A stretch of 34,464 nt of DNA from an uncultured cyanobacterium (lineage in GTDB: Bacteria > Cyanobacteriota > Cyanobacteriia > CACIAM-69d), in NCBI GenBank assembly GCA_937883785.1, contig CALGDE010000087.1, positions 1 to 34,464 on the forward strand. The letters are read 5' to 3'. The translations under genes were made by a program, and so were the position numbers. The notes beneath the pieces were generated by a model that was given only the letters and a program-made list of their open reading frames with translations, was not told the origin of the DNA and ran no database searches. Positions 13,668-32,442 of this stretch are shown piece after piece; the stretch's first letter is position 1; every line of letters starts with the position of its first letter.

Positions 13668-16547
13668 ATGACTATTTCTCCGGGAACGCGATTATTACTG
13701 GACATCGCCAACAAAAATCGGTTCTGGATCGCCAGCACCATTGTTATCAGCTTTTTCACCGGGGTATTTAACGGGGTAAGTGTGGCGCTGTTAGTGCCGG
13801 TTTTATTGGGATTTGTGGGGGCCCAGGAAGGGTTTGGCGGTGCTCCCGGGGTTGTGGGCGAGGTGCTGGGGCTGTTTAGCGGAATCCCTGAAGATCAGCG
13901 GCTGATGGTGATGCTGGGGATCATTATTGGGGCGATCGTTGCGAAAAACTTTATGCAGCTTGTCAATACGGCGGTGGGGGGGCACTTGTCACGGCAGTTG
14001 GTAAATGAGGCCACCTTTCGGGGGCTGCGACTGGTTCTGGGGGTGGGAATCGATTTCTACAGTCAGGTGAAAACTGGGGATTTGATTCAGCGCTTGGGCT
14101 CGGAAAGTAGTGGGGCTGTGGGAACTATCAATACCATTGTGCAAATTTCGGCGACGACGGTGACTCTGCTGACGTTTATGGGGGTGCTGTCGTCCATTTC
14201 CTGGCAGCTGACCCTGTTGGCGATCGCCTTTGGGGGCGTGGTGGTAGTGGCGAATCGCTGGTTTTCGCTGACGGCGAGGGCCCTGGGGCGACAGGCAATT
14301 TTGCTGGGGCGGCAATATACCAGTCAGCTGGTGGAAACCATTGGTGGGATTCGGCTAATTAAAAGCACCAGTAATGAGCCTGAGGAGTTTGAGCGGTTGA
14401 CGGGGACAATTTTGCAAAAGCAGCGGGTGGAGTTGCGGTCCCAAGGATTTCGGTCGGTGGTGGCATCGGTCAACGAGCTGATGGTGGTGGTGGCGTTGGT
14501 GTCCATTGTGGTGATTGGGCAGTGGATTTTTGCCAATCAAACGGAAGTGTATGCGGCGATCTTGCTCACTTACTTATTTTTACTGTCCCGGGTACTGGGG
14601 ATGGTGACTACCTTGGGCAAGGCGCTTAATAATTTGGCGCTATGTACGGCGGCGGTGAATGCCCTGGTTAGTTTGCTGCGTACGGACAATAAACACCAGG
14701 TACCTAACGGTTCGGTGCCCTATCGTCCTCTGGAAGATGCCATTCAGTTTGTTGATGTGAGCTTCCACTATCCCACCCAGAAAAAGCGCAAAACTCTGCA
14801 AAAGGTGAACTTGACCATTGCCAAGGGGCAGACGGTGGCGCTGGTGGGCACGTCGGGGGCAGGCAAAACCACAATGACTGACCTGATTACTCGCTTTTAC
14901 GATCCGGTGAAGGGAAAAATTTTGCTGGACGGACATGATTTGCGGGATTTAGATTTGCCGTCCCTGCATCGGGCTATGGGCATTGTTAGTCAGGATACGT
15001 TTTTGTTTAATGATACGGTTCGGAACAATATTGCTTACGCCTGGAGCGGGGCAACGGACCAGGCGGTGCGGGAGGCGGCGCAGCGGGCCAATGCGGATGA
15101 GTTTATTAATGAGCTGCCGGACAAGTACGAAACGGTGTTGGGCGATCGCGGGGTGCGCCTGTCAGGGGGGCAACAGCAACGTATTGCGATCGCCCGGGCT
15201 TTGCTGCGGGACCCGGATATTTTGATTTTGGATGAAGCCACCAGCGCTTTGGATACGGTGTCGGAGCGCATGGTGCAGGAGGCGCTAACAGAGCTAAGTC
15301 GCGGGCGCACAGTGTTGGTGATTGCCCACCGCTTATCTACGGTGCAAAGTGCCGACCAAATTGTGGTGATGGAAAAGGGCACAATTGCGGAGCAGGGCAC
15401 CCATAGTGAGCTGCTGGCGTTAAACGGTAAGTACGCTCGCCTTTACACGATGCAGTTTAGCGATAGCGCTACTCCCACGGCGATTCACTGTGAAAATGTG
15501 CTGGAGCAGGTGGTGCTTCAGGAGGCTTTTGCTCAAATGTCTCGTTGGCGGGCGATCGCCGGCGTGTCAGAGCCGCAGAGTAATGGCGCAAAAAACGGCG
15601 CAGCGCTGGGTAAAGCTTCGAAGAAAAAAAGCAAACAGTCTTCGGAGGAGGAGCGAAAAGAAGAGAAAAATAACGGGCACAAAAACGATGCAGCCCCTGC
15701 GGGCTCTGACGAGAACGCCCTAGGGAAACCCGACTTTAATCTGATTGGGACAGAGAAGGATTTACCTCCCGATGAGCTCAAGGCAATCGCCCGGGCAGTG
15801 GTGCGCAGCGTTGATGTGAGCAGCATTATGGCCTACACCTTAAATCAGTTGCCAGCTCTCTATGCCACTAGCCGCGAGGGCGTTAAGTTTCAGCAGCAGC
15901 GCATTGATCAGGAGCTACGGGAAACGATTCGGGAACAGGTGGCGGAGGCCATTGAGCACCATCGTGCCAACCCGGATTTCGAGGTGGAGCGCCAAAAGCT
16001 AGCCACCATCGGGCCAGTGGGAAAAGGCGTAGGGGGTTCAGTGCTTGAACGGCTGTCCTATGAAGTGCGAACCCACCTAAACACGCTGATTGGCGTTCTA
16101 ACGCTGCTATCGGATGACTTGGCGGACCGTAAGGAACGTCAAGAGCTATTGCAGGAAGCCTACGGGGCATCGATGCAGATTTTAACGGTGTCAGAGCTGC
16201 TGCGGGAAACCCTTAAGCGTCGTCAGCTAACCCTGGACGGAAATGGCGCATTGACCAGCATGTTGTCTCCCGGTCAGCGAAAAACCATTGTGGGCGAAAA
16301 TATGCGGCGGGTGGAGACCGTGGGGCGGCTGGTAGATAAATTGACCCAGGGGCTAGAGCGACTAACGGACCAACTTTTAGATGACCTGTTGCGGCGATCG
16401 CCTGGCATTTCTCGCCGACTGATGGACAATGCGATGGATACCTTGGTTATTTCTCCCGAAACGCCCCTATTCCAAGAAATCTACAGCGATGTAACGGCGC
16501 TGCTGAACCAAATTGAGCACCTAGAAAAGTCAACGATTGAGGTGTAG
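13668..16547 (+). CDS. ABC exporter (type I half-transporter) with ComFB-like and pseudo-HisKA C-terminal extension
   Basis: 959 residues from the ATG before TISPGTRLLLDIANKNRF; the frame is open to TTG 13599/ATG 13602, which would add an unlikely 22-23 residues. Residues 1-320 hold six membrane helices. The ATPase has Walker A GTSGAGKTT (Lys400), signature LSGGQQQR (498-505), Walker B ILILDEATSALD (Asp522, Glu523) and switch His554, so it should hydrolyse ATP as a homodimer. A normal exporter ends near residue 590. The remaining ~370 residues start with ENVLEQVVLQEAFAQM (609-624), continue through a Lys/Glu-rich linker (about 630-700), then have SSIMAYTLNQLPALYATSRE (about 717-736), strongly reminiscent of ComFB, and LSYEVRTHLNTLIGVLTLLS (about 796-815), which resembles a HisKA helix with Tyr798 in place of the phospho-His. 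The tail ends in helical sequence. Glycosyltransferases follow, so a polysaccharide or glycolipid substrate is inferred. Confidence 0.85.
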   Translation: MTISPGTRLLLDIANKNRFWIASTIVISFFTGVFNGVSVALLVPVLLGFVGAQEGFGGAPGVVGEVLGLFSGIPEDQRLMVMLGIIIGAIVAKNFMQLVNTAVGGHLSRQLVNEATFRGLRLVLGVGIDFYSQVKTGDLIQRLGSESSGAVGTINTIVQISATTVTLLTFMGVLSSISWQLTLLAIAFGGVVVVANRWFSLTARALGRQAILLGRQYTSQLVETIGGIRLIKSTSNEPEEFERLTGTILQKQRVELRSQGFRSVVASVNELMVVVALVSIVVIGQWIFANQTEVYAAILLTYLFLLSRVLGMVTTLGKALNNLALCTAAVNALVSLLRTDNKHQVPNGSVPYRPLEDAIQFVDVSFHYPTQKKRKTLQKVNLTIAKGQTVALVGTSGAGKTTMTDLITRFYDPVKGKILLDGHDLRDLDLPSLHRAMGIVSQDTFLFNDTVRNNIAYAWSGATDQAVREAAQRANADEFINELPDKYETVLGDRGVRLSGGQQQRIAIARALLRDPDILILDEATSALDTVSERMVQEALTELSRGRTVLVIAHRLSTVQSADQIVVMEKGTIAEQGTHSELLALNGKYARLYTMQFSDSATPTAIHCENVLEQVVLQEAFAQMSRWRAIAGVSEPQSNGAKNGAALGKASKKKSKQSSEEERKEEKNNGHKNDAAPAGSDENALGKPDFNLIGTEKDLPPDELKAIARAVVRSVDVSSIMAYTLNQLPALYATSREGVKFQQQRIDQELRETIREQVAEAIEHHRANPDFEVERQKLATIGPVGKGVGGSVLERLSYEVRTHLNTLIGVLTLLSDDLADRKERQELLQEAYGASMQILTVSELLRETLKRRQLTLDGNGALTSMLSPGQRKTIVGENMRRVETVGRLVDKLTQGLERLTDQLLDDLLRRSPGISRRLMDNAMDTLVISPETPLFQEIYSDVTALLNQIEHLEKSTIEV

Positions 16548-17548: not shown

Positions 17549-17869
17549 AAACATGACCCCGAGAGCGTGCCCTTGCCACTCCCGCTGCGATATCTGTTAA
17601 AGGCAACTAAAAAATAAAGGCTGACTTTATCAATTTCTTAGGATTCCGCTTGGAGATCCCGTCCAAAGGAAAACCACTTCAAGAGGCGCTTAAAACCCTA
17701 GGGGCTGTCGTCATTTAGACTTCAAAGTCTTTGACCGTAACGGTTTCAGCTCCTAGCGTTTTTTTGTTTTAAAAGGGCGTGTACTCCCCACTGTGTAAGG
17801 CTTTTAGCACTTAATTGGTGACACGCCCTAGGTTATCCTTGAGGCGACTAGTAGCCGGAAGTAGGGTTA
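17549..17869. other. Intergenic region holding a MITE-like element
   Basis: 321 bases between the GT2 gene and the amidase gene. Most of the right half is the repeat element at 17702-17828. The left half has a short hairpin (ATAAAG-GCTGA-CTTTAT, near 17612) but no gene. The amidase promoter and ribosome site (AGTAGGG shortly before the ATG) lie at the right end. Confidence 0.6.
17702..17828 (-). mobile_element. MITE-like repeat, copy A
   Basis: 127-bp sequence that on the minus strand runs from GGGCGTGTCACCAATTA to GACGACAGCCC. It aligns along its whole length with copy B at 30896-31021, with shared blocks such as GGGCGTGTC, CAATTA, AGGAGCTGAAACC versus GAGGCTGAAACCC, and GACAGCCC. The ends are imperfect inverted repeats (GGGCGTGTCxxCA against GGGCTGTCxTCA). 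CTA or CTAG flanks both ends, compatible with a short target duplication. It has no coding capacity, so it would need a transposase in trans. Confidence 0.7.
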
Positions 17870-19210
17870 ATGGGGCGAATTTTTTTGTCAGCGGGGCACG
17901 GCGGCGTTGAACAGGGCGTTGTGGACCTGGGGGTGCAGGTGGGGGAACTTACCGAAGCCGAACAGATGATACTGCTGCGGGACCAGGTGGCGCAGACGCT
18001 GGAATCGCGCGGGATTGCGGTGCTATCCGTGCCGGATGAGCTGAGCCTGCAACAGACGATCGCTTGGATCAACGCCCGGGCCCGCACGGGAGATTTTGCT
18101 GTGGAAATTCACGGGGATTCGTCAGACAATCCCTCCGTGCGCGGCATGACCGCCTATTACATTGCCAATAATCGCGATCGCCAACTCCACGCCGAATTAT
18201 TGCTGCGGTCCGTTTTTGCGCGGGTGCCCCAATTGGCCAACCGGGGAGCCCGCTCCGATACGGAAACGGGATTGGGCAGTCGGGTGTTTTGTCGCGATCC
18301 GAAAATTCCGTCCCTGTTGCTGGAGGTGGGCTTTCTAACCAACGCCGCCGATGCTTGGGTGATTCAAAATCGCCGCACGGAAATTGCAGCGGGCATCGCC
18401 GACGGCATGGGGCGAATTTTGGGGGTGCTGCCGGATATTGCCGCCCCCACCTATGAACAAATTGGCATTCGGGTGAACAATCAAACCTATCCGGAGCGGG
18501 GCTATTTAATTAACGGCAATTCCTACATTCCGATTAATTTGGCGGAGCGGTTGCGATCGCAAATTGGCGGCGATCTTTCCATTATTCGCGTGCGCTACCG
18601 CAACGTGGTTTACATCAAAGCGGTGGATTTGCGGGAATTTAACATCGCCGTGGGCTGGGATAACCCTAATCGCACCGTGGTGCTGCGCACGGTGCTGGAT
18701 ATTTGTGAAGGGATGATCGGGCGCATTATGGGGCACGGCAGCACGTCAGACTTTCAACTGATGGCGTTTTTGACCCGGGAGAATCCCAGCGCTCGGGAGC
18801 AGTTTCCCGATTTGCCCAACCTTTACCGGGAGGAAGCCAGCGCTGAGGGAGTTAGCTACGACGTGGCTTTTGCCCAAATGTGTACGGAAACGCGATTTTT
18901 ACAGTTTGGCGGTGGGCTGCAGTCGAGCCAAAATAATTTTGGGGGATTGGGGGATATTAGTGGTTTCGCCGACGGAGCATCGTTTATTAGCGCTCGGTTA
19001 GGGGTTCGGGCTCACATTCAACATTTAAAGGCCTACGCTAGTACAGAACCCTTGGCGAAGGAGGTGGTGGATCCGCGCTTTAGCTTTGTGCCACGGGGGT
19101 CGGCGGCGGAGGTGCAGCAGTTAACGGGACGATGGTCCGATGACCCAAATTATGGGGATAAGGTTATTTCGCGTTTACGGCAGCTTTATGAGTTGGCTCA
19201 GTTTTTGTAG
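17870..19210 (+). CDS. tftA: N-acetylmuramoyl-L-alanine amidase / glucosaminidase-like protein, TftA type
   Basis: 446 residues with three parts. Residues 1-185 are an Amidase_3 zinc amidase: FLSAGHGG with His10, VEIHGDSS with His81 and LLLEVGFLTN with catalytic Glu152. Residues about 200-280 resemble a substrate-binding YLINGNSYIPINLAERL segment of the copper-amine-oxidase-N type. Residues about 285-446 resemble a GH73-like glucosaminidase with candidate catalytic Glu340 in QMCTETRFLQFGG and the RLGVRAHIQHLKAYAS motif. This architecture matches, from memory, the cyanobacterial hormogonium tapered-terminus morphoprotein TftA, which shapes filament ends; the symbol is given on that basis. No signal peptide is visible at this start, although the substrate is periplasmic. 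Ribosome-like AGTAGGG precedes the ATG. Confidence 0.75.
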   Translation: MGRIFLSAGHGGVEQGVVDLGVQVGELTEAEQMILLRDQVAQTLESRGIAVLSVPDELSLQQTIAWINARARTGDFAVEIHGDSSDNPSVRGMTAYYIANNRDRQLHAELLLRSVFARVPQLANRGARSDTETGLGSRVFCRDPKIPSLLLEVGFLTNAADAWVIQNRRTEIAAGIADGMGRILGVLPDIAAPTYEQIGIRVNNQTYPERGYLINGNSYIPINLAERLRSQIGGDLSIIRVRYRNVVYIKAVDLREFNIAVGWDNPNRTVVLRTVLDICEGMIGRIMGHGSTSDFQLMAFLTRENPSAREQFPDLPNLYREEASAEGVSYDVAFAQMCTETRFLQFGGGLQSSQNNFGGLGDISGFADGASFISARLGVRAHIQHLKAYASTEPLAKEVVDPRFSFVPRGSAAEVQQLTGRWSDDPNYGDKVISRLRQLYELAQFL

Positions 19211-19357
19211 GGAATTTTTTTGCAGGGAGGTCCGCAGAAGGACCGATTACGCTACTGATTACGCCACCAATAGTTACGCCACCCATTTCGACGTTAACGA
19301 TGATCGGGATGATGCCGATGGTTACAACACTGGCGATCGCGGCGGGGCAAGTCACCG

Positions 19358-21337
19358 ATGGTAAATTCCTCGTCCTTAGGATCGCGCTTTAGAACCCAGA
19401 TTCCTCGGGGGCGATCGCCCAAGGAACGCCCCACCTTACGCACCTTACAAGTGGCCGCCTTGGTGGGCATCATTATCGTGGCACTGCGGACCCTGGGACT
19501 TTTGCAGGGGCTAGAGCTAGGAGCATTCGACAACATGGTGGAAGCCCTGCCTTTGGCTCCCCCCGACGATCGCGTGGTGATTGTGGAATTTTCCGAAACG
19601 GATTTGCAACGCTTTCAACAGTGGCCCCTAACGGACCGCACCCTGGCGGAGTTGCTGCGCACCATTCAATCGGGAAACCCTCGGACCGTAGGGCTGGATA
19701 TTGTGCGCGACTTTGCCGTGCCTCCCGGTAAACGGCAGCTCGACGACGTTTTCCAAACCATGCCCAACCTGGTGGGCATTCGCAGCGTCACCTGGGGAAA
19801 AGAGGACAGTCGTATAGAAGCGCCGCCCCTACTGCTGGAACAGGGGCAGGTGGCCGCATCGGATTTGCTGCTGGACGATGATTTGCGGGTGCGGCGAGGG
19901 CTATTGTCCCTGGTGGACGAACGGGGGGAGCTTTGGTTTGGGCTGGGGGCTCGGCTCGCCTTGGATTACTTAGCCGCTGATGATATTTACCTGGAGCCCA
20001 TCGCGGAAAAGCAGGGGGTTTATCGCCTGGGGGAGGGGCTTTTTAAGGAGCTACACCGCACCGTGGGCAGCTATATCAACCTGTACACGGCGGGCTACCA
20101 GGTGCTGTTGCGCTACCGTGGTTTGGGCTGTGCGGATCCCCAAATGACCCCAGGATGTCGCTTTCGACGGATTCGGGCAACGGAGCTGCTGCGGGGGGAG
20201 GTGGATCCGTCGGTATTGCGCGATCGCCTGGTGCTCATTGGAGTCACCGCCGACAGCCTTAAGGACACCTATGCCACTCCGTACCGCATTGACGGGCAGC
20301 GGGCTGAATCGGTACCGGGGGTGGAAATTCATGCCACCATCGCCAGCCAGGTGCTGTCCACGGCCATCGACGGTGAATCGAGCCTGAAAACCTGGTCCGA
20401 TTCCCTAGAGGTGGGGTGGATTTTGCTGTGGGCCCTGGTGGGCGGGGTCACCATCGGCAAGCTAAAGCGTCTGGATTTAAGCGTGCTGTCCCTGCTGGGG
20501 CTCTCCACCCTGCTGGTGGGCATCAGCTACGGAGCCCTGGTGATAGGCTTTTGGATTCCCCTGGTGCCGCCACTGATGGCATTTTTGGGGGGCTCAGTGG
20601 CCAATTTGGCGGAAATTGCGAACCGGGAGCGGCGCGATCGCCAATTACTGATGGGAATGTTCGAAAAATACGTGGCTCCCCAGGTGGCGGAGTTAATCTG
20701 GCAAAGCCGCAGCCAGGTGATTCGCCAGGGGCGATTTGTGGGACAGGAAATGATCGCCACCGTACTCTTCACCGACCTGGTGGGCTTTAGTACAATCGCC
20801 ACTAAAACCACCCCCAACGAACTGATGGCTTGGCTTAATGAATATATGAACGCCATGACCCAGGTGGTGGTAAGCCACAATGGGGTCGTCAATAAGTTTA
20901 TTGGCGATGCCATTATGGCGGCTTTCGGCGTGCCTTTACCGCGATCGCGCCAGGGTCAAATGCAACAGGACGCCATCAATGGGGTGCGATGTGCCGTGGA
21001 AATGGCCGAGCAACTGCGCCAACTCAACATTATGTGGAAGCAACGGGGCTGGCCCACCGTGTCCATGCGCATCGGTATCGCCACAGGACTAGTCACCACA
21101 GGGTGTTTGGGCGGGGCACGGCGGCTAGAATTCACCATTATTGGCGACACGGTAAACGTAGCCTCCCGCCTGGAAGGCTTCGACAAAGAATCTTTTCAGG
21201 GAGAATGCCGAATTCTAATTTCGGAAGAAACCCAACAGTATGTGTCCACTCGCTTTTCCACAGCGTTTTTCGCCGACGCCGTTCTCCGGGGACGCAAGAC
21301 CCACAGCAACATTTATCAGGTGTTTCCCGAGTGGTAG
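19358..21337 (+). CDS. CHASE2-domain class III adenylate/guanylate cyclase
   Basis: 659-residue membrane sensor. One N-terminal membrane helix (about residues 28-48) precedes an extracytoplasmic CHASE2 domain (about 50-345; EFSETDLQRFQQWPLTDRTLAELL and LVLIGVTADSLKDTYATPY are typical). Membrane helices (about 350-415) lead into a class III cyclase domain (about 465-625). Metal-binding Asp473 (FTDLVGFS) and Asp517 (NKFIGDAIM) are present. Lys513 and Thr593 (EFTIIGDTVNVASR) occupy the base-specifying positions; the Lys/Thr pair is found in cyanobacterial adenylate cyclases, so cAMP is the likely product. The transition-state Asn600 and Arg are also retained, so it should be active. It lies in the polysaccharide block, and a signal that it senses is unknown. 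Confidence 0.9.
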   Translation: MVNSSSLGSRFRTQIPRGRSPKERPTLRTLQVAALVGIIIVALRTLGLLQGLELGAFDNMVEALPLAPPDDRVVIVEFSETDLQRFQQWPLTDRTLAELLRTIQSGNPRTVGLDIVRDFAVPPGKRQLDDVFQTMPNLVGIRSVTWGKEDSRIEAPPLLLEQGQVAASDLLLDDDLRVRRGLLSLVDERGELWFGLGARLALDYLAADDIYLEPIAEKQGVYRLGEGLFKELHRTVGSYINLYTAGYQVLLRYRGLGCADPQMTPGCRFRRIRATELLRGEVDPSVLRDRLVLIGVTADSLKDTYATPYRIDGQRAESVPGVEIHATIASQVLSTAIDGESSLKTWSDSLEVGWILLWALVGGVTIGKLKRLDLSVLSLLGLSTLLVGISYGALVIGFWIPLVPPLMAFLGGSVANLAEIANRERRDRQLLMGMFEKYVAPQVAELIWQSRSQVIRQGRFVGQEMIATVLFTDLVGFSTIATKTTPNELMAWLNEYMNAMTQVVVSHNGVVNKFIGDAIMAAFGVPLPRSRQGQMQQDAINGVRCAVEMAEQLRQLNIMWKQRGWPTVSMRIGIATGLVTTGCLGGARRLEFTIIGDTVNVASRLEGFDKESFQGECRILISEETQQYVSTRFSTAFFADAVLRGRKTHSNIYQVFPEW

Positions 21338-21473
21338 GCAACCGTCAGTGGCATACAGCGGCTATGCCCTTCTTATAACGGTCTAATCCCAGGACAGCCT
21401 TAGGCGCTGGTCTAGGGCGCGTGGTATTTTGTCTGAGGATATTTGACGATCGCCGGGCGAGCGAACCAGACCT

Positions 21474-24400
21474 GTGGAATCAACAATTATTGTGGTGGCG
21501 GGGGTGCCGGCAGATTATGGCGATCGCCTCGGGTCGGTGCTGTGTAAAGCGGGTGGACAGCCGGTTGGGGCGGCATTGGACCAGTGGATTGATGATGCGC
21601 TGGTGTCCCAGGGGTTGGCGACCCCAGGAGTGTTGGCCCGGAACCCGGAGGCGGTGGGGGAAAGTTTAGCCCGCCGCGCTAAGGATTTGGGGGCACATTG
21701 GCAGGCGCGAGGCGGAATTATTGTGGCCTATGCGCCTCGGATTACGCTGTTTTTGCGCCAGTGGATGCAGTGGTTGCCGACGGCGAGATTTTTGCTCACC
21801 TATCGAGCCCCCTGGGTGTCTTTGGATAATTTATACGGACACCACAGCCATCGCGGTGGGGATGGGGCGGCGGATCCCTTTAGCCATGACCCAGAGCGGG
21901 CGGTGGGGGTAGTGGAGCACCATTATCGGGAATTGCTGAGTTTTCGTCGGGATTTTCGGGACCAAACGGCGGCGGTTAATCTAGATAGCTTTGAACAGCA
22001 GCCGGGGCGAGTGATTGATGCGCTGCTGGGGGATCGCCGGTTTATTCCGGTGCCGTCTCCCACCGAGCTGGTGCTGCCAGGAAATGATGATCGGGTGTGG
22101 CGGAGTCGCGTGCACCTGTTGAGCAAAAACCACTCAAAAACCTTGGCCCTTTACGGTGAGCTCAATGCGCTGGCGCTGGCGGAAGCGGCGATCGCCCCCT
22201 TGCCCAATCCGTTTACCGAAGCCGATCCGGCACCGTCGGATCAACCCCTGCGGGATTGGGCCCATAGCGCTCGCAGTCGGGGGTTGGCGGCGCGATCCCA
22301 GGAGGCGTTTGCCCAGCAAACCGACGAGGTGCGGATTCTGCGGAAACAGGTAAGGACCTTGGAGCTGGCGGTGGATCAGGCCCAGTTTCAAAAGCATCAG
22401 GCCCAAAGCAGTACGGGACAATTTCAGGCGCGCATTTATGATTTGGAGCCGGCGATCGCCCAGCTTCAGGAACAGCTTGAACAGTTGCACGCCCGCTATG
22501 AGCAACAGCGCACCTTGCTGGGCACCCACCATACCCAGGTCCAATATTTAACGGAGGCGCTGGAGGATAACAGGGAGCGTGATCGCCTAAAAGACGCCCT
22601 GGAAGATGCGCTGGTTAACCAGAAGCAAGTGGAGGCGGCCCTGGAGCGAGAGCACCAGCGCTATGAGCGGGCAAAAAATACCCTCGCCACCAGCCAGGCG
22701 CGGTTTAACGAAGCCCAGGTGCGGCTACACCAAGCCCAAGATGCCTTGACGGCCATGCGCACCAGCAAGTTTTGGAAGTTGCGCAATCGTTGGTTTAAGT
22801 TCAAAGGCAAGGTGGGGGGCGACAGTTTCCAGGATTTGGACCGTCGGCTGTTTCCCCAGTTATTAAAGGCGTTGGAGTTGGCACCGGTGCCGCCGCTGCC
22901 CCCCGATATTGAAATCGACGTGGAGGCGGAAAAGTCTACCATTCGCGCCACGTTGGATTTGCATTTTCCCCAGGTGTCCCACCCCCAAACCCGCATTGCC
23001 CTGGCCCTGTTTGACCGGGACTATTATTTGGAAACCTATCCTGATTTGGCGGAGGCGATCGCCCAATTGCGGTTTGTGGACCTGTTTAGCCACTTTATTC
23101 GCAGCGGGGCGGCGGAGGGGCGCAACCCCAGCCTGTTGTTTAACGCCCAGTACTATGGCGAGCAAAATCCCTCGGTGGCAAAGCAGGTGGCGGCGGGCAA
23201 ATACACCAGCTTTTTCGACCATTTTATTCAGGTGGGCATGGGCAAGGGGCTCAATCCCTGTGCCGCATTTGACAACGATTTTTATATCAACGAGTATCCC
23301 GATGTGGCGGGGCTGGTGGACGTGGGACAGGTGTCGTCTGCCTTTGAGCACTATGTGCTGTACGGCGGTCAGGAGGGGCGGTTGCCGCTTCCGCTGCCGG
23401 AAATGGAAGAGCGGCAGATGGAAGAGCTGGGCGATCGCCGCACCATGGTGGCGTTTATTTCGGGCTGTGCCGGTGCGCCTTACCGCTATCGCTGCGAACA
23501 TCAGGCGGCAATTTTGGAATCCTTGGGCTACACCGTGGCGCTATTTGAAGTGGGGCAATATCCCCATGACGAGCTGCTGGAGCGGTTCCGGGTGATTGTG
23601 ATGCACCGGGTACCTTACCATCGGGCCCTAGACGGGCTAATTTCAGACGCCCAGGAGCGGGGCATTCGGGTGATCTTCGAAACGGATGACTGGGTGTTTG
23701 AGCCAGAAATGCTCCACCAAATTGAGGATGCGCGGGAAAGCGACGGGGAGACCCAGCTGTTTTACACGGAAATGGTAAAGCAGTTCCAGCGGGCGATCGC
23801 CCAGTGTGACGGGGTAACGGTGAGCACGCCCCTGCTGAGGGATGCGGTGTTGGCGCAAAATCCTGAGGCGCGGGTGGCGGTGTTGCCCAATCGCATTAGC
23901 CCGGCCATGGAGCGGGTGGCGATCGCGGCCCTAGAACAAGAGCGCCCGGCGGCGGATCAGGATATTGTGCGCATCAGCTACTTCAGCGGCACCCGCACCC
24001 ACCAACAGGATTTTGAACAGTGCGTGGGGGCGATCGCCACGGTGCTGGATCAATTCCCCCAGGTGCGACTACGCATTGTGGGGCATTTGGAAGTGCCGGA
24101 AACCCTGGCGGAAACATTGGGGAATCGCCTGGAAACCTTGCCCATCGTGCCCTGGCAAAAACTGCCGGCGCTATACCGCGACACCGACATTAACCTGGCA
24201 CCGTTGAATCCCCACGTGCCCTTTACCGCCGGTAAAAGCGAGCTGAAATTTGTGGAGGCGGGACTAATGGGGGTGCCCACGGTGGCGTCGCAGTGGGGGC
24301 CTTACGCACAAACCATCACCAGCGGCCACAACGGCTGGCTTTGTGAAACGGAGGCGGATTGGGTTGAAGCACTGAGGCAGCTAATCGAAAATCCTGACCT

Positions 24401-25718
24401 GCGTCAGCAGCTAGGAGAAACGGCTCAGACGGAGGTGCGCGATCGCTACCTAACCCGCTCGGCGCTGGTGGATAGCTGGCAGGCGTGGCAATGGGTGCTA
24501 ACGGAGCCGCCCCTGTGCGGTGAGGCGCGGAAATTGACCTTAGGTATCGTCGTTTGGTGTGACAGCGCATTGGCGGAGGATTTGCATCGGTGGTCCTCCT
24601 GGGATTACGGCATTGCAGCGTTGGCGAAGCTCTTGGGCGACTCCGGCCACGAGGTCACGGTGTATCTCCAGGGGGATCCAGCCCTAAGCAATCACGATTT
24701 TCTGGAGCGGAAGCGGGTTTGGGATGACCGGTTGGCGGGCTCCGTGGCGGAGGTGGACTATTTTGAACATCGCCGCCAGCGTCCGGTGGTGTGTGATGTG
24801 GCGATCGCCACCCATTGGCAAACAGCCTACGCGGTGGCGGATTTGGAACGGGTGCGGCTGCGGGTGCAGTGGATGATGGCGGATCCGACGTCGTCGTCAC
24901 CGTTGGGCGATCGCCAGGGGGAGGCGAAAAACGCCAGTGTGTTCTTGCCCCTGCGTCCCATCGCCGTGGGAGAGGAACTGCGCCACACCCTGGTGCAAAC
25001 GCCGGGATTCCGCAATGTGGTGGACGCGGTGCCCCTACCCTTAGCGCCGGAATTTACGGAAACGGAGCCCCAGCCAGAGCGTCATTTACTCCCCGATGGC
25101 TCAGTAAATGTGCTGTGGTTCGACGACCCCAACACAGACCCGGCGGTGCGATTCCAGGTGTTGGCAACCTTGGCACAGTTGCAACGGGAATACGACGAAA
25201 AACTGCTTGTGCAGTGCTACGGACGCCCAGCGCCAGCAGGCTTCGAAGCGGAGCATGGACTGCGCCACTTAGGAAAGGTGGCCGATAACTCAACGCGATC
25301 CCAGCTCTTTAGCCTCAGCAATATTCACGGGGCGATCGCCCCATCATCGGTGCAGGTCACCGTTGAGGCGATCGCTTGTGGCTGCGTGGGGGTGGTGCTT
25401 GGGGAGGACCCCTTAGATGATTTGGGGGATTTTGTGGTGGAATCGCCGCTGGATCCAGATAGCTTTGCCAGCCATTTACGACAGTTAATTGACGATGCCC
25501 AGCGACGCAGTGCCCTGGCGGAAAAAGGTGCAGCTTGGGCAAGGGAATTAACCTGGGAAAAAACCGTCGAAGCCACCTTAGAAATTATTAACCAAATCAC
25601 ATTTTTAGGGGCTGATCTTTTAGGGGCTGATTCAGGAACCAGCAACACGATTCCATCTTCTAAGGATTCTGACAACTCGGAAGAAGAGAGACTTGAAAAG
25701 GGTGAAGATTGTGATTAG
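21474..25718 (+). CDS. Giant multidomain glycosyltransferase (sulfotransferase-like N terminus, coiled coil, YPDVA repeats, two GT-B regions)
   Basis: 1414 residues; GTG start, no clear ribosome site. Residues 1-200 resemble a sulfotransferase fold, but the 5'-phosphosulfate loop is degenerate (VVAGVPADYGDRLGSVL lacks SGT). Residues about 280-440 are a coiled coil rich in Gln, Glu and Leu, ending in TSKFWKLRNRWFKFK, a junction common in cyanobacterial polysaccharide glycosyltransferases. Residues about 515-640 contain three repeats of the DYYLETYPDLA...FSHFIRSGAAEGRNP kind. Residues about 655-1010 are a GT4-like domain (RYRCEHQAAIL; ETDDWVFEP; FTAGKSELKFVEAGLMGVPTV). Residues about 1020-1380 look like a second, more diverged GT-B protein ending in a family-like C-terminal helix. 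The next gene overlaps its stop by 8 bases. Acceptor and donor unknown; the tight operon indicates glycan assembly. Confidence 0.8.
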   Translation: MESTIIVVAGVPADYGDRLGSVLCKAGGQPVGAALDQWIDDALVSQGLATPGVLARNPEAVGESLARRAKDLGAHWQARGGIIVAYAPRITLFLRQWMQWLPTARFLLTYRAPWVSLDNLYGHHSHRGGDGAADPFSHDPERAVGVVEHHYRELLSFRRDFRDQTAAVNLDSFEQQPGRVIDALLGDRRFIPVPSPTELVLPGNDDRVWRSRVHLLSKNHSKTLALYGELNALALAEAAIAPLPNPFTEADPAPSDQPLRDWAHSARSRGLAARSQEAFAQQTDEVRILRKQVRTLELAVDQAQFQKHQAQSSTGQFQARIYDLEPAIAQLQEQLEQLHARYEQQRTLLGTHHTQVQYLTEALEDNRERDRLKDALEDALVNQKQVEAALEREHQRYERAKNTLATSQARFNEAQVRLHQAQDALTAMRTSKFWKLRNRWFKFKGKVGGDSFQDLDRRLFPQLLKALELAPVPPLPPDIEIDVEAEKSTIRATLDLHFPQVSHPQTRIALALFDRDYYLETYPDLAEAIAQLRFVDLFSHFIRSGAAEGRNPSLLFNAQYYGEQNPSVAKQVAAGKYTSFFDHFIQVGMGKGLNPCAAFDNDFYINEYPDVAGLVDVGQVSSAFEHYVLYGGQEGRLPLPLPEMEERQMEELGDRRTMVAFISGCAGAPYRYRCEHQAAILESLGYTVALFEVGQYPHDELLERFRVIVMHRVPYHRALDGLISDAQERGIRVIFETDDWVFEPEMLHQIEDARESDGETQLFYTEMVKQFQRAIAQCDGVTVSTPLLRDAVLAQNPEARVAVLPNRISPAMERVAIAALEQERPAADQDIVRISYFSGTRTHQQDFEQCVGAIATVLDQFPQVRLRIVGHLEVPETLAETLGNRLETLPIVPWQKLPALYRDTDINLAPLNPHVPFTAGKSELKFVEAGLMGVPTVASQWGPYAQTITSGHNGWLCETEADWVEALRQLIENPDLRQQLGETAQTEVRDRYLTRSALVDSWQAWQWVLTEPPLCGEARKLTLGIVVWCDSALAEDLHRWSSWDYGIAALAKLLGDSGHEVTVYLQGDPALSNHDFLERKRVWDDRLAGSVAEVDYFEHRRQRPVVCDVAIATHWQTAYAVADLERVRLRVQWMMADPTSSSPLGDRQGEAKNASVFLPLRPIAVGEELRHTLVQTPGFRNVVDAVPLPLAPEFTETEPQPERHLLPDGSVNVLWFDDPNTDPAVRFQVLATLAQLQREYDEKLLVQCYGRPAPAGFEAEHGLRHLGKVADNSTRSQLFSLSNIHGAIAPSSVQVTVEAIACGCVGVVLGEDPLDDLGDFVVESPLDPDSFASHLRQLIDDAQRRSALAEKGAAWARELTWEKTVEATLEIINQITFLGADLLGADSGTSNTIPSSKDSDNSEEERLEKGEDCD
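25698..25702 (+). promoter_or_regulatory. Ribosome binding site deciding the start of the tandem GT2 gene
   Basis: AAGGG is 8 bases before GTG 25711. That GTG overlaps the preceding stop (GTGATTAG), an arrangement typical of translational coupling, and makes the TTG at 25693 unnecessary. Confidence 0.6.
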
Positions 25719-27633
25719 AAAAATCGCCCGCAGAATCGCTCGTATTCCCACTATTCCAGGTCGCGCCGTTCGTCTTTGGCAACGGGAAGGAACATCGGGA
25801 GTGCGCGAAAAAATCCTTGACAAGCTATTTCCAAACCGCCCTAAATTCGACGACTGGGAACAATATCACGCAGGGTTACGCCCCCATGTTCGCCGACAGT
25901 TTCGGCGGCGTTTGGATCAGCTAGAAAATCCGCCGCGCCTATCAATAGTTATGCCCGTTTATAACACCCCAGAACGGTGGCTACGGGAGGCGATCGCGTC
26001 GGTACAAAACCAACTTTATCCCCATTGGGAGCTGTGTATTGTTGATGACGCATCACCGAAAAAACACGTCATCAAACTATTAGAAGACCTATCAAAAGCC
26101 GACCCGCGCATTCGAGTACAGCGCCGCCACCAAAACGGCGGAATTTCTGCGGCGTCTAACGATGCTTTAGCCATGGTCAATGGCGAATATATTGTGCTGA
26201 TGGATCACGATGATGTGATGCCGGAGCACGCGTTATTTCGCATTGCCGAAGTAATTCGCCAGGATAATCCCGACTTTTTCTACTCCGATGAAGCGTTAGT
26301 AACCCCCGATGGCGACGTTATTCAGTTTATGTTTCGCCCGGCATTTTCCCTGGAATTATTACGGTCCCATCCCTACATTGTTCACCTGGTAGGATTTCGG
26401 CGATCGCTATTAGAAAACATCAAAGGATTTCGCCCGTTCCTAACCGTTTCTCAAGATTATGATCTAATTTTGCGGGCATCAGAAAAAGCCGAGCGTATCT
26501 CCCATATTCCCGAAATTCTCTATTTGTGGCGGCAGCACGACACCAGCACCGGTCATGATCGCAAGTCCCAGGTTATGGAAATTTCCCAGGATTTACTGTC
26601 AGAACATTTACAGCGCAGCGGCGAAGCGGGGAGTATTTCCACCAGCTTCCGATTTAACTTTTTTCAAGTAAAATATCCCATCAAAAAATCGGTTAAAGTT
26701 GCCGTTATTATTCCCACTAAAAACTGCGGGCATCTTGTCAAACAATGCTTAGAAAGCTTTGCTAAATACCGAGGAAAAGTTGATTACGAAATCGTTTTGA
26801 TTAACCATCAATCTGATGATCAAGAAAGCATTAATTACTTTAATTCGATTCGCGATCGCCACACCGTTCTCTACTACGAAGGGGCGTTCAATTTCTCTGC
26901 CATTAATAACTGGGGCATTGAACAAATTCCTCTTCATTTTGATGAGTCCTTTACTCATTATTTATTTTGCAATAACGATATTGAGGCGATCGAAACGGGC
27001 TGGCTTGACCGCATGGTGGAGTATGGGCAAAAAGAGGATGTGGGCATTGTGGGGGCAAAGCTGTTGTATCCCGACGGTATTTCCATTCAGCACGCCGGCG
27101 TTTGTGTGGGAATGCACGGTATGGCGGAGCATTTTGCTAAGTTTATGCACGATCGCCTGCCCAACGGAGAACAGGAGCCGGGCTATGTGGGGGCGTTGAT
27201 TGCCAGCCATGAATTATCATCAGTAACCGCCGCCTGTTTATTAATGCGTCGCGATGCCTTTGAGGCGATTAATGGCTATGACGAAACCTTGGCGGTGGGC
27301 TTTGGGGACGTGGACTTATGTTTACGAACTCGAGCAGCAGGGTATCGGGTTATTTTCTGCCCCCAAGCCACTTTAATTCACCATGAATCTTACTCGCGCG
27401 GCAAGACATTCCAGGGCGATCCCCACCCAGAAGATTCGGCAAAATTCTTCAAACGTTGGAAGTCAATTATTGTTGCTGGTGACCCCTATTCCAACCCCAA
27501 TATTGCCATTTCTAGCCAAGAATGGGAGCCGAAAGAACGGTTAGAATTGCCCATCAAAACCCGATCGCGATGCTATGACTTAAACACCCATCAGTTTATT
27601 GGTCCCGACGCCCCATTCCAGGCTCCCGATTAG
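25711..27633 (+). CDS. Tandem-domain family 2 glycosyltransferase
   Basis: 640 residues, chosen GTG start overlapping the previous stop by 8 bases. The first GT2 domain begins at about residue 77 (LSIVMPVYNTPERWLREAIAS), has IVDDAS near 111 and the metal motif DHDD near 165. The second GT2 domain starts near residue 329 (VAVIIPTKNCGHLVKQC), with NNDIEAI near 420, TAACLLMRRDAFEAINGYDE and FGDVDLCLR near 533, the acceptor-site features of rhamnosyltransferase-like enzymes. Both domains look intact. Such double GT2 proteins add two sugars in O-antigen-like or exopolysaccharide assembly. The N-terminal 30 residues are Arg-rich, suggesting contact with the inner face of the membrane. Part of a four-gene translationally tight group. 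Confidence 0.9.
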   Translation: MIRKIARRIARIPTIPGRAVRLWQREGTSGVREKILDKLFPNRPKFDDWEQYHAGLRPHVRRQFRRRLDQLENPPRLSIVMPVYNTPERWLREAIASVQNQLYPHWELCIVDDASPKKHVIKLLEDLSKADPRIRVQRRHQNGGISAASNDALAMVNGEYIVLMDHDDVMPEHALFRIAEVIRQDNPDFFYSDEALVTPDGDVIQFMFRPAFSLELLRSHPYIVHLVGFRRSLLENIKGFRPFLTVSQDYDLILRASEKAERISHIPEILYLWRQHDTSTGHDRKSQVMEISQDLLSEHLQRSGEAGSISTSFRFNFFQVKYPIKKSVKVAVIIPTKNCGHLVKQCLESFAKYRGKVDYEIVLINHQSDDQESINYFNSIRDRHTVLYYEGAFNFSAINNWGIEQIPLHFDESFTHYLFCNNDIEAIETGWLDRMVEYGQKEDVGIVGAKLLYPDGISIQHAGVCVGMHGMAEHFAKFMHDRLPNGEQEPGYVGALIASHELSSVTAACLLMRRDAFEAINGYDETLAVGFGDVDLCLRTRAAGYRVIFCPQATLIHHESYSRGKTFQGDPHPEDSAKFFKRWKSIIVAGDPYSNPNIAISSQEWEPKERLELPIKTRSRCYDLNTHQFIGPDAPFQAPD

Positions 27634-27656
27634 TCCCTTTACTAGCAGTAACCGCC

Positions 27657-28217
27657 ATGACTGTAACCATTCCAGATGCGCCCTCATTCCAAGAAGCGAT
27701 CGCCTTAACTAATAAGTTAATCAAGGCAGCGGCTGATAGTAATGAGGATTTGGATCAAGGGGCGATCGCTAAATTAACCGGCAGCGTTAACGGGTCGCGG
27801 GGCTTTTTTGTGTCCTATCTCACGGTGGAAGAGTCGCCCGCTGCCCAGCCTACTGAACCGGTATTGGCCGCGCTGGCTAGCAACCCGGAAACAGTGAACG
27901 ACATCCTGGTGAAAAACGTGGTGATGGCGGCGGCGATGACGGTGACCCATGATCGCAACGGCGATCAGGCAATGGTGGCAGCGTCCCAGCGCACGAGTGA
28001 TCGCTCGGCAGCCCATGTGAATGCTCTGTTGGCGCGGACAGAGTTGGCGCGGACAGAAGCGACGGCGGATTTGGAAGTGCGGGTGCGCACCATGGGGCAG
28101 GCGCTGACCCATGGCACGGGCGATTATGCGGATTTTTTGGACAAGTGGAATTATGACGCTGAGCAGCGCATTGAGATGGCGAAGGCGATCGCCGCGATTA
28201 TGGATGATTTGGGCTAG
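27657..28217 (+). CDS. Unknown 186-residue protein in the glycosyltransferase operon
   Basis: No family recognised. The sequence is soluble, alanine-rich and mostly helical, with no signal peptide or membrane segment. Acidic overall. Notable segments are GSVNGSRGFFVSYLT in the N-terminal half, ILVKNVVMAAAMTVTHDRNG in the middle and DKWNYDAEQRIEMAKAIAAI near the C terminus. A short internal repeat LARTELARTEA appears near residue 124. It is 23 bases after the tandem GT2 stop and 5 bases before the next start, so it belongs to the same transcript. An accessory or scaffolding role in glycan synthesis is a guess from context only. Confidence 0.7.
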   Translation: MTVTIPDAPSFQEAIALTNKLIKAAADSNEDLDQGAIAKLTGSVNGSRGFFVSYLTVEESPAAQPTEPVLAALASNPETVNDILVKNVVMAAAMTVTHDRNGDQAMVAASQRTSDRSAAHVNALLARTELARTEATADLEVRVRTMGQALTHGTGDYADFLDKWNYDAEQRIEMAKAIAAIMDDLG

Positions 28218-28222
28218 CGACG

Positions 28223-29902
28223 ATGGGTAGCGACGGGCGATGGGGGCGGATGGCGATCGCCCTGGTGTTAATCCTGGCGGTGGTGTTCCGGCTGGCGGGG
28301 CTGTCTGGCAAGGTGTACTGGGGCGATGAGGTGTTTAGCTCCTTTCGGGTTGCAGGATTTACGCTGCCGGAGGTGGCAGAAATTTTGGCGGACGGTCAGC
28401 CGCGCACCCCCGCCGAGCTGCAATATTTTCAGATCCCTAATGGCGATCGCACCACCGCCGACACCGTTCGCGCCCTGGCTATCGACGATCCCCAACATCC
28501 GCCGCTTTATTTCGTCGCCCTCCGCTGGTGGCATCAAATTCTTGGTCCCGTCTTCGGTGACGGGCTTCCCCTACGGCGGCTCCTGTCCGTGGCGATCGGG
28601 CTAGCGGTGTTGCCCTGCGCCTACGGTTTGGCCTGGGAATTATTTGGGTCGCGGGTGATCGCCTGGACCGCCGTTGCCATCATCGGACTCTCGCCCTTCC
28701 ACGTGCTGTATTCCCTGGAAGTGCGCAACTATGGGCTGTGGACCCTGGAGATTGTCGGGTCGAGCTGGCTATTATTGCGCGCCCTACGCTTAAAAAATTC
28801 ACGCGCCTGGTTTGCCTATGCCCTTAGCGCCGCCAGTTTGTTGTACACCTTACTGTTCGGGCTGTTTACCCTAATGGGTCATGGCGCATTTGTGGGAATT
28901 GCCGCTATCCAACGACAGCTCCGGCGATCGCAATTTATCGGTTTTATCTGCGCGATCGCGATCGCCCTGTTCCTATGGCAGCCATGGCTACGCATCATCA
29001 TCATCGGCTTCGGCACCATCACCCAAACCACCGGATTTACCAGCCTGCCCGTCTCTCCAGCGATGCTGATCCAAAACTGGGGTTTAAATTTAGGGCGCTT
29101 GTTTATTGATTGGGATTCCCAGGGGCAGATTTTTCCCGCCGATTGGTCCTTAGCACCCGGTTTAGTCATTGGAGCGATCGTCGCCACTGCCGCCCTCACC
29201 GTTATCGCCGCCGCCGATTTAAACCGCTGGCAAGAAACAAAGAAAAATCCAGAATCCGGCATCAAAAGCCTAGCCCTCTGGTTCCTTCTTACCCTAATCT
29301 TTGCCCAATTCCTGCCTCTACTCATGCTAGACCTGCGCTCCGGCGGCTTCCGGTCCGGCGTTACTCGCTATTGGGTGCCTTGCTATTTGGGGCTGCAACT
29401 GCTGATCGCCTTCTATCTAGGACGGCGACAGTTCTGGGTACAGCAGCAAAACTGGGGGCGATCGCTCCTGGGATTAATCCTCGCCAGCCAAATTATTTCC
29501 TGCACTGCCAGCGGAATCGCCAACACCTGGTGGGTCGAACAAGGCAGCTACGACCATCCCGCCGTCGCCGACACCCTTAACGCCATCCTAGCCCCCGGCG
29601 ATCCCTATCCCTTAATCCTCAGCCAAGCCTATATCCCCCGCCTAATCTCCCTTAGCTATCAACTGCGCCTCGACGCCAGAATCGCCATTATCCCCGACGG
29701 CAACATCAGCATCGTCACCGACAGCCAGCCCAGCGATTTCCTGCTTTATCTTTACCGCCCGTCCCCAAAATGGCTCGCCCAAATCCAACAGCAGTACCCT
29801 GGGGCGATCGCCCAGCCTGTCTACCAATCTCCGCCACAGTTTCCATACCTCCCTCCCCTCGCTAACCATAGCGCCGTCCAAATTTATCAGCTAACCCTTT
29901 GA
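28223..29902 (+). CDS. GT39/ArnT-like polytopic membrane glycosyltransferase
   Basis: 559 residues with about 11 hydrophobic segments. After the first helix (IALVLILAVVFRLAGL) comes GKVYWGDEVFSSF with the Asp-Glu pair at residues 35-36, the catalytic acidic motif found in the first periplasmic loop of GT-C enzymes using lipid-linked sugars (GT39, ArnT, PMT). An early periplasmic loop carries DDPQHPPLYF, also typical. The C-terminal 120 residues are soluble and less conserved. The enzyme would transfer sugars from a polyprenyl-phosphate donor outside the cytoplasm, complementing the cytosolic GT2 and GT4 enzymes upstream. It begins 5 bases after the unknown 186-residue protein. Donor and acceptor cannot be deduced. 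Confidence 0.85.
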   Translation: MGSDGRWGRMAIALVLILAVVFRLAGLSGKVYWGDEVFSSFRVAGFTLPEVAEILADGQPRTPAELQYFQIPNGDRTTADTVRALAIDDPQHPPLYFVALRWWHQILGPVFGDGLPLRRLLSVAIGLAVLPCAYGLAWELFGSRVIAWTAVAIIGLSPFHVLYSLEVRNYGLWTLEIVGSSWLLLRALRLKNSRAWFAYALSAASLLYTLLFGLFTLMGHGAFVGIAAIQRQLRRSQFIGFICAIAIALFLWQPWLRIIIIGFGTITQTTGFTSLPVSPAMLIQNWGLNLGRLFIDWDSQGQIFPADWSLAPGLVIGAIVATAALTVIAAADLNRWQETKKNPESGIKSLALWFLLTLIFAQFLPLLMLDLRSGGFRSGVTRYWVPCYLGLQLLIAFYLGRRQFWVQQQNWGRSLLGLILASQIISCTASGIANTWWVEQGSYDHPAVADTLNAILAPGDPYPLILSQAYIPRLISLSYQLRLDARIAIIPDGNISIVTDSQPSDFLLYLYRPSPKWLAQIQQQYPGAIAQPVYQSPPQFPYLPPLANHSAVQIYQLTL

Positions 29903-29934
29903 CGGCTCTTGACAGCTTCCTTGCTTCGGCTCTT

Positions 29935-30822
29935 TTAGTCCGGGTTTTGGTCCCTGGGATCTTGGGCGATCGCCTCAGCCACCGCTCGCACCCTAGCTTG
30001 CGTCAACCCCGTTGCCCGGCACACCGTCTCCACATCCAGCCCCGCCAGCAACATCCCCCGCGCCGCCTCGATCAGCCCCTGCTCGATTCCCTGTTCAATC
30101 CCCTGCTCGATTCCCTCTTTGATGGCATAACTCATCTGTCCCTGGGCATCGAGCAGCTTCATCCGTTGCTTTTCCGCCAGCTCATATTCTTCCTGAGAGA
30201 GCTGACTTTCGTTGGCGAGCGCAAAAGCATCATCAAAATCAGACCCCGTCAGCACCTCCGGCACCTGGTCAACCTTTCCCGCCTGCTGAATAAAATATAG
30301 CCACAGCTCACTGCGCTTATCCAGCTGCTCCGGCAACTTAGGCAACTCAGCAAAAATCAGCTCCAGATGGTCGCTACAGCACCTTCCCGTATTGGCATCC
30401 AAAAGCTGATAGCGGGTGATGGGATTGGACTCGCCGTCGTCGCTGGGAAACAGGACAAAGTCGGTGATTGTAACTGAAATAACCGGCTTCAAACATAAAT
30501 ATCCTTCGCCGCGCTTAAGCTGACTGACGTAGGCTTTGGCGGTGTTATAAACCACTCGTTCGGCGAAGGCTTCCACCGGCAAAATTTGCATCTCGATAAT
30601 GACAATGGTTTCGTCGTCTAGGACGGCTTTGATATCGAGAATGCTTTGCTTGAGGCTGTAAAGATCGGGGTTTTGGTACGGATCAATGATTTCTAGATCG
30701 GCGATGCGAGGCTCATTGTCATAAATAATCGCGTTAAGGAATTTTCGCAAAATTGGCTTGCTGCGGCTGGAGCCAAAAATGCGCTTAAAACCAAAATCGG
30801 TGCGAGGATCTACGAAGCCCAT
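29935..30822 (-). CDS. Rpn-family PD-(D/E)XK nuclease (recombination-promoting nuclease / transposase-like)
   Basis: 295 residues; start is the ATG opening MGFVDPRTDFGFKRIFGS, the canonical beginning of the family, rather than the TTG 24 bases upstream. Nuclease core features are ILDIKAVLDDETIVIIEMQI (Asp, Glu and Gln of the PD-(D/E)XK fold, about residues 65-85) and ERVVYNTAKAYVSQLKRGEGY. In Escherichia coli, Rpn proteins promote RecA-independent recombination and sometimes mobility; cyanobacteria carry many copies. The C terminus has a repeated GIEQ unit encoded by a 12-bp tandem repeat (about 30079-30116), followed by a small helical DNA-binding-like end (ETVCRATGLTQARVRAVAEAI). It appears full length. 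It lies opposite the glycosyltransferase operon, beside MITE-like copy B. Confidence 0.88.
   Translation of the reverse strand: MGFVDPRTDFGFKRIFGSSRSKPILRKFLNAIIYDNEPRIADLEIIDPYQNPDLYSLKQSILDIKAVLDDETIVIIEMQILPVEAFAERVVYNTAKAYVSQLKRGEGYLCLKPVISVTITDFVLFPSDDGESNPITRYQLLDANTGRCCSDHLELIFAELPKLPEQLDKRSELWLYFIQQAGKVDQVPEVLTGSDFDDAFALANESQLSQEEYELAEKQRMKLLDAQGQMSYAIKEGIEQGIEQGIEQGLIEAARGMLLAGLDVETVCRATGLTQARVRAVAEAIAQDPRDQNPD
30079..30116 (-). repeat. 12-bp in-frame tandem repeat coding GIEQ units
   Basis: Three 12-base units (CTGCTCGATTCC, CTGTTCAATCCC, CTGCTCGATTCC on the plus strand) encode repeated EGIEQ-type residues in the Rpn-like protein. Such repeats vary in number between Rpn copies and could alter length by slippage. 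Confidence 0.8.
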
Positions 30823-30895
30823 GGTGCCATACAAAAAAGACGCCAATTTGATTCTGGCACAGGTTATGGCTCCCTCTGATCGGGTTTATTTCCCA

Positions 30896-31021
30896 GGGCG
30901 TGTCGTCAATTACAGTGCCAGAAGCCTGACATGGTGGGAAGTGCATGCTCTTTCAGCACAAGACATATTGAGGCTGAAACCCTCACCGCCACTGACTTTT
31001 AGGCTTAGATGATGACAGCCC
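30896..31021 (+). mobile_element. MITE-like repeat, copy B
   Basis: 126-bp sequence running from GGGCGTGTCGTCAATTAC to GATGATGACAGCCC. It aligns with copy A (17702-17828, opposite strand) over its full length, with gaps of one or a few bases. Terminal inverted repeats are imperfect. No matching target duplication is visible next to this copy. It sits in the gap between the Rpn gene start and the end of the DUF1838 gene, and contains no frame of interest. Confidence 0.7.
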
Positions 31022-31048
31022 TTGGGGATGTCCCCTAGATGTACGCCT

Positions 31049-31996
31049 CTAAACGCACTCATTTATTGGGAAGCGATCGCCCTCTAAATAAGCGTCAAAA
31101 TTGTCCTCGAAGTAGCGCCAGGAGGTCATATTGATTTTCTGGGTAAAGTTGTCAGGGGCGTGGCGATATTTCGGTAGTCGCTGCTCAATTTCCTGGCGCA
31201 ACATTGGCGACAGTTCGTCATAGCCCGATACCCGCCGACCATAAGCGTGATAAACCAACTGTCCTTGCAAATCTCCCATCTTCATCCACGGCAACCAGGG
31301 ACCAATACGATTCCACGCCAGGGTCATCGTATCCACCGTCGCTCGCTGCGGATCCTGTAGTTCATCGAGCGGCACCGTGATTTGGAAAAACTCCGACGCC
31401 ATGTAATCGGGGCTGGGGCTGTAATCGCGGAACTGGGGGTTGTTGCCCAGGGGATTGGGATAGGTAGGAAACATTTCCAGCACAAAAGACGCCGAATTCC
31501 CCGCCTGACGCGCTGGAATGGGATAGCGCAACTGATGCTGCACGGGATCATTAGCCACGTGCATCACCGTTAAAGATTCTTCCGTCCAAGGATTTTTCCA
31601 GCGATGGATCAACTCCCCCGACACCGGATCCGTGTAGTAATTCAACTCCCGCGTCACCAAACACCACACGCCGTTTTCGTCCTGAATTCCCCGCGCCACG
31701 TTCATTCCGGTGATATTAAACAGCCGCTCCTGGGGACGCCCCGGCACCATGGCATACACCGATCCGGTCCACTCGATAAATACGTCCTGCCCGTCAATTG
31801 CCGCCCGTGCCTTCAAAAATTCCCGAGGCTCAAACAGGATCGCCCCTTGCTGAGGTGCCATAATTCCCCGCGCTGCCTTACTGGGATTTACCTGTTTAGG
31901 GGCGGTTTTCGTGGCGGTTTTCGTGGCGATCGCCCCAGGGGAAGTACCGGTCATTGAAACAGCAGCAGAAGGAGACACAGCGTTTTGGCGGCTCAT
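31049..31996 (-). CDS. DUF1838 family protein
   Basis: 315 residues from the ATG opening MSRQNAVSPSAAVS, chosen because GAGGAA lies about 8 bases upstream; the frame is open further but is atypical. Residues about 55-315 match the DUF1838 family by recall: EWTGSVYAMVPGRPQERLFNITGMN, VWCLVTRELNYYTDPVSGELIHRWKNPW and VMHVANDPVQH, then GPWLPWMKMGDLQGQLVYHAYGRR. The family is common in cyanobacteria and some proteobacteria, with no established function. The first 45 residues are low-complexity (Ser/Ala/Thr/Lys), with a repeated ATKTATKTA encoded by a short duplication near 31905-31925; this could be a flexible linker. Divergent from glgC across 446 bases. Confidence 0.8.
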   Translation of the reverse strand: MSRQNAVSPSAAVSMTGTSPGAIATKTATKTAPKQVNPSKAARGIMAPQQGAILFEPREFLKARAAIDGQDVFIEWTGSVYAMVPGRPQERLFNITGMNVARGIQDENGVWCLVTRELNYYTDPVSGELIHRWKNPWTEESLTVMHVANDPVQHQLRYPIPARQAGNSASFVLEMFPTYPNPLGNNPQFRDYSPSPDYMASEFFQITVPLDELQDPQRATVDTMTLAWNRIGPWLPWMKMGDLQGQLVYHAYGRRVSGYDELSPMLRQEIEQRLPKYRHAPDNFTQKINMTSWRYFEDNFDAYLEGDRFPINECV

Positions 31997-32442
31997 AAAG
32001 AGGTTCCTCGTTTCTAGTCGGGTTAGCGACGGAATTAGCTGATTGGAAAAGTCAGTTTGGAAAAACCAGCTCATGGGCGATAACCCCATGGAAAACAAAC
32101 TGACCCTGCCTGTTATTCTTTGCCTATCCATTTTGGTGAATCAGCCAGAAACGGGAGAACAGGCGAGCAAAAGTCAACTAAATCGCAATCTTATTTAACT
32201 TATGTTAGCGAATGTTAACCGTATTGCCGACTACTAAATATCGCTTCCCGGTTAAAGCTCCGTTGAAGGACAGAGGCGCGATCGCAAAATCCCCTTAACA
32301 TCGCCATAAACTCAAGAGAAACTAGCGGTAAAAAGCATCAATAAAATCCTCCTTGGGGATCAAAAATCCTGATTTTCCTTGCCAAGAGCGACCTGCAAGC
32401 GGACACTAGTCTTGAACCGTGGGCAGCACCAGAGGTCGCGTT
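31997..32442. other. Intergenic promoter region between DUF1838 gene and glgC
   Basis: 446 bases between divergent genes. No gene is seen. It must hold the promoters of both. An AT-rich stretch near 32190-32240 is the most likely site of basal elements, but I cannot define a convincing -35/-10 pair. A HIP1-like GCGATCGC occurs at 32278-32285. Confidence 0.5.
32431..32435 (+). promoter_or_regulatory. Ribosome binding site deciding the glgC start
   Basis: AGAGG is 7 bases before GTG 32443. This GTG gives a 429-residue protein that begins as cyanobacterial GlgC does; the GTG 24 bases further upstream would add 8 residues with no ribosome site. Confidence 0.7.

Follow-up and report, generated by a model that had tools for sequence, protein, structure and literature searches.

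A high-copy MITE family in an uncultured cyanobacterium and its probable IS427-group mobilising transposase

ISPssp5 is an 837-bp IS of the IS5 family, IS427 group, with the ends GGGTGTGTCATCAATTA and GGGCGTGTCATCAATTA and a TA target duplication (PMC6514802). Among short non-coding repeats, ERIC reaches 711 copies in Photorhabdus (PMC10969869). The window analysed here, 34,464 nt in full, is contig CALGDE010000087.1 of assembly GCA_937883785.1, from an uncultured cyanobacterium (own genome, G000; 4.84 Mb in 167 contigs), and it holds two copies of a short repeat. We consider it very probable that these copies belong to a high-copy, non-autonomous MITE family, most likely moved by an ISPssp5-type (IS427-group) transposase.

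Copy 1 occupies positions 17702–17828 on the minus strand, with its TA duplication directly outside (about 17699–17830), and copy 2 occupies positions 30896–31021 on the plus strand, where the flanking TA pair has eroded to CA and TG. The family profile, a sequence-only model built from 30 copies, matches the former at 17699–17830 (E 1.3e-33; 89% identity to the own-genome consensus) and the latter at 30895–31023 (E 7.4e-29; 79% identity). The two copies agree at 92 of 126 positions (73%) in a global alignment, and their local alignment score of 75 lies far above all 2000 shuffles (mean 14.4, sd 2.1, maximum 25; z about 29). The sequence-only reading, which had described two copies of ~127 bp, opposite in orientation and alignable over their full length, and had asked for a comparison with shuffled sequence, is thus upheld. 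It had also placed both copies outside coding sequence, and the neighbouring gene limits agree: one gene ends at 17548 and the next starts at 17870 around copy 1, while the corresponding limits are 30846 and 31049 around copy 2. No overlap with a plausible gene was found at either copy, and an 84-aa ORF across copy 2 was dismissed as mechanical. The left terminal inverted repeat of copy 1 (17811–17828, minus strand) reads GGGCGTGTCACCAATTAA, and the outer 9 bases of that of copy 2 (30896–30904, plus strand) read GGGCGTGTC. The imperfect repeats proposed earlier are therefore real, but the ends as then given are slightly short when the family serves as guide. Additionally, a decayed copy at 13490–13613 (plus strand; profile E 8e-7), outside the model-building set, was also present in the iterated profile, and a probable decayed partial copy lies at 13313–13403 (minus strand; E 4e-4, model positions 23–114). 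Window positions 13599–16547 encode an unusual-looking pairing, an ABC transporter protein whose C-terminal part carries a ComFB domain (PF10719).

Full copies of the family mostly measure 124–127 bp (range 120–133 bp) and carry no transposase gene. Their two ends are imperfect inverted repeats about 18 bp long, GGGCGTGTCATCAATTAA in the consensus at the left and GGGGCTGTCATCATTTAA at the right when read inwards, each adjoining a TA; the consensus starts with TAGGGCGTGTCATCAATTAAG and ends with AAATGATGACAGCCCCTA. Of 51 full copies, about 45 have the TA at the left and about 43 have it at the right. Specifically, a pyrimidine (C or T) precedes the left TA and a purine (G or A) follows the right one, which gives YTAR as the target and TA as the duplication; a longer duplication is argued against because the outer bases pair differently (TTA...CTAG, CTA...CTAA). 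Terminal inverted repeats, a fixed TA duplication, a short gene-less body in many copies and past mobility are all found together here, as in a MITE. Head-to-tail copies with a common CTAG junction were observed at L043:1001-1256 (G000:C162:32354-32613) and at L031, about 896–1130, so the TA next to an existing, older copy can itself serve as an insertion site. None of the 56 copies with sufficiently long flanks overlaps an ORF of at least 150 aa, versus 36–44 of 56 when their positions are shifted by 350–700 bp; this strong deficit of insertions within genes is what selection against them would produce.

The census draws on searches and on sampled stretches of the own genome. Copy 2 as query gave 41 matches there and the family profile at least 151, which answers the earlier call for further copies. 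The left-end 18-mer has 235 matches at no more than 3 mismatches and the right-end 18-mer 218, with a single match for the reversed control pattern in each case; the two counts overlap and are not additive, because a perfect right end fits the left pattern with 3 mismatches. A reasonable estimate is 150–235 copies. With at least 150 genome copies, inverted ends and a TA duplication, the cautious label "MITE-like" given to the repeat from sequence alone proves apt. At this density 1.1–1.7 copies are expected per 34-kb window, and under a Poisson model roughly 30–50% of such windows should hold two or more; the bracketing of a sugar-polymer operon by two copies is therefore unremarkable, and the flanking arrangement loses the special standing it had been given. 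The family also occurs, at other sites, in G001 (MAG SRR3401492_bin.38), the only congener compared. The other 4 searched genomes from the taxonomic family lack it, 3 more distant genomes gave short end matches only, and a plasmid collection gave no match; so far, the family is confined to one small cyanobacterial genus.

To follow its movement, the flanks of seven own-genome copies were joined and searched in the congener. Two of the seven sites are contiguous and empty there (flanks of L036 and L035), a third (L024) has matching spacing and lacks the MITE, and a fourth (L034) corresponds to an intergenic region whose MITE is oppositely oriented; the remaining three gave no information. At the site of copy 1, the congener sequence crosses the insertion point by 12 bases without a MITE; at that of copy 2, the neighbouring genes are present and the MITE is absent. 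The congener stretch (G001:C400) that corresponds to the gene region at 29935–30846 is likewise free of it; this gene, which adjoins copy 2, encodes a PD-(D/E)XK family protein (PF12784, Rpn-like). Since the congener copies occupy different sites, the MITE moved after the two species split. Sampled copies are 72% alike within the own genome (maximum 91%) and 82% alike within the congener (maximum 98.5%), values which, for samples picked by query similarity, would fit recent movement in the congener and older, decaying copies in the own genome. Copies stand at 67–91% of the consensus and 68% of the changes are transitions, an excess consistent with drift after insertion.

These sites also bear on whether the two window copies act as the ends of a recombining segment or of a composite transposon, which would invert or move the 13-kb amidase–glycosyltransferase segment. 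The copies do bracket this segment in opposite orientation, and copy 1 sits in a gap where gene order differs from that of the congener. Yet G001:C400 carries window 28694–29886 and 31059–34413 with order and orientation unchanged, which means that no inversion breakpoint lies at the right end, at copy 2. At the copy 1 site homology reaches only about 12 bases beyond the insertion point, too short a stretch to trace the gene-order change through the MITE. An identity of 73% over 126 bp makes a poor substrate for homologous recombination, no intact IS427-type transposase was found in the own genome, and two copies in such a window are expected by chance. A composite transposon would move the segment as a unit, with a duplication outside the pair; here each copy looks like a separate insertion, and neither is present at the matching congener site. 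Consequently, the inversion of 17.8–30.9 kb suggested by the sequence-only reading is not supported, given the uninverted right flank in the sole congener, where it had advised comparing orientation, and the low identity of the copies; nor is its composite transposon, with no intact transposase and with the pre-insertion site of copy 1 traceable without the segment. We regard both forms of the proposal as extremely unlikely, and we infer that the two copies give the intervening operon no specific function.

Gene order in the gap holding copy 1 (window 17549–17869) differs between the two genomes: in the congener a LysR-type regulator adjoins the amidase, and a 2-isopropylmalate-synthase-like gene adjoins the GT2 gene, names given by inspecting translations. 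MITE copies might seed gene-order change in the genus by recombination or aberrant transposition, with copy 1 marking one such break, but we think this unlikely; because copies are so many, a single change near one of them is no evidence of causation. If the idea were true, synteny breaks at MITE sites would exceed the number predicted from intergenic position alone.

For the MITE family itself, the ends and TA duplication match those of ISPssp5. Among the papers searched, one alone contains the exact end sequence. A scan of named genomes with a 21-base end revealed elements of about 785–950 bp with MITE-type ends in Psychrobacter, Acinetobacter, Moorena, Nostocales, Rickettsia, Nitrospira and others, and several of them proved to encode a two-ORF transposase. 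In the congener, transposase pieces that match Pfam DUF4096 lie against MITE-type ends, GGGCGTGTCATCAATTAAG (C104) and GGGCATGTCATCAATTAAA (C706), with a decayed instance at C149. A fuller IS427-type copy with related ends is present in G002, a member of the taxonomic family of the window genome; beside it, at L201:1802-1956 (G002:C10), we observed three end-like sequences (ggcttaGGGGCTGTCGTC...) in 68-bp steps. In the own genome a single 129-bp transposase relic is left, at C142:25177-25305 (E 2.2e-6), and the end that adjoins it, TAGGGCGTGTGCTCAGTTAGG, is eroded. An intact IS427-type transposase with MITE ends was not found across its 167 contigs, and these likewise yielded no complete autonomous partner that has both MITE ends; such a partner could in principle be hidden in a gap of the assembly. 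Among the complete ISs examined, none carries the right end GGGGCTGTC, and the ISs examined offer no likeness to the MITE interior past its outermost 20 bp, hence no demonstration of descent by internal deletion. The search for an IS with the same ends, suggested by the sequence-only reading, thus succeeded through the congener pieces and other bacteria, and yielded only a relic in the own genome; with the partner reduced to that relic, the MITE is likely a passenger of the IS427 group and not a member of it. C110, C5 and C82 of the own genome also hold IS5 elements, which were rejected as partners for their different ends, of type GAGGACGTCTGAAAAGT. ISL3 was rejected as parent: a transposase fragment lies beside an end in G049, but ISL3 is absent from the own genome.

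An autonomous parent of another family seemed to be offered at G000:C158, where an IS630 (DDE_3) transposase lies between matching MITE ends about 1.08 kb apart. IS630 elements duplicate TA, as the MITE does, and the nested element mimics an autonomous parent. Its own ends are different (TAGTCAYTC...), however, and it is inserted at a TA inside a MITE copy, with about 115 bp of the MITE on one side and the final MITE bases on the other; the family profile aligns positions 2–115 there. The nested arrangement, at L047:899-1973 (G000:C158), rules IS630 out as the parent, and the MITE does not class as an IS630 derivative; we lend this origin almost no credence. Mobilisation by an IS427-type transposase is the probable alternative on the comparison of ends and targets. 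Most likely, an ISPssp5-type DDE transposase would have recognised the MITE ends in trans, excised the element and reinserted it at YTAR targets with duplication of their central TA. The family now appears to be immobile and stranded in the own genome.

The form of the repeat raises a different question, namely whether it is kept as a functional RNA or as a regulatory hairpin, such as a terminator or a stabiliser of mRNA ends. Nearly the whole consensus is palindromic (-55 kcal/mol, z -6.5), the copies lie between genes, and conservation in two inner blocks, ACGCCCTTT and TAGGGGCTGAAACC, roughly equals that of the ends. Against this, the long palindrome shows 86.4% paired cells versus 85.7% in column shuffles of 74 full copies, the two-hairpin alternative shows no excess over shuffles in the same set, and the copies have drifted from the consensus chiefly by transitions. 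Double changes over the whole palindrome number 57 versus 40 in shuffles, an excess that falls largely on target bases and one variable column and is taken against shuffles that ignore relatedness. The two-hairpin RNA structure was rejected for its lack of covariation, there is no covariation support for an RNA function, and an Rfam search of the window gave no match. We therefore hold a retained RNA or regulatory role to be very unlikely, and individual copies may act as accidental terminators. For a mobile MITE, the likeliest reason for the conservation of the inner blocks is that they were needed by the transposing lineage, perhaps as candidate inner transposase-binding sites.

Together, these data give a high-copy MITE family a probable mobilising partner in the IS427-group transposases, and outline a history in which the family spread within a single small cyanobacterial genus, one species lost the partner, and the copies decayed. 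They also advise caution, since a genome-wide count is needed before a mechanism is proposed for repeats that bracket an operon. We hold with moderate confidence that the family is new and apparently undescribed, in a comparison that ISfinder entries and the Nezha sequence lie outside, while its kind is ordinary. Correia, ERIC and the cyanobacterial Nezha (PMC10969869) are likewise short and non-coding, with inverted ends, a short duplication and up to hundreds of copies; they differ from this MITE in end sequence and host, Nezha being compared without its sequence. REP and BIME palindromes are also intergenic, palindromic and of high copy number, but REPs, as described in PMC3733652, measure 20–40 bp and fall into two superfamilies with a tag at one end, unlike the 126-bp window MITE with its two transposon ends and TA duplication. 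The closest likeness is to ISPssp5, which shares with the MITE the end sequence GGGYGTGTCATCAATTA and a 2-bp TA target duplication (PMC6514802); ISPssp5 has 837 bp and two overlapping transposase genes, whereas the window MITE, at 126 bp, lacks genes, differs in its interior and has a modified right end, GGGGCTGTC.
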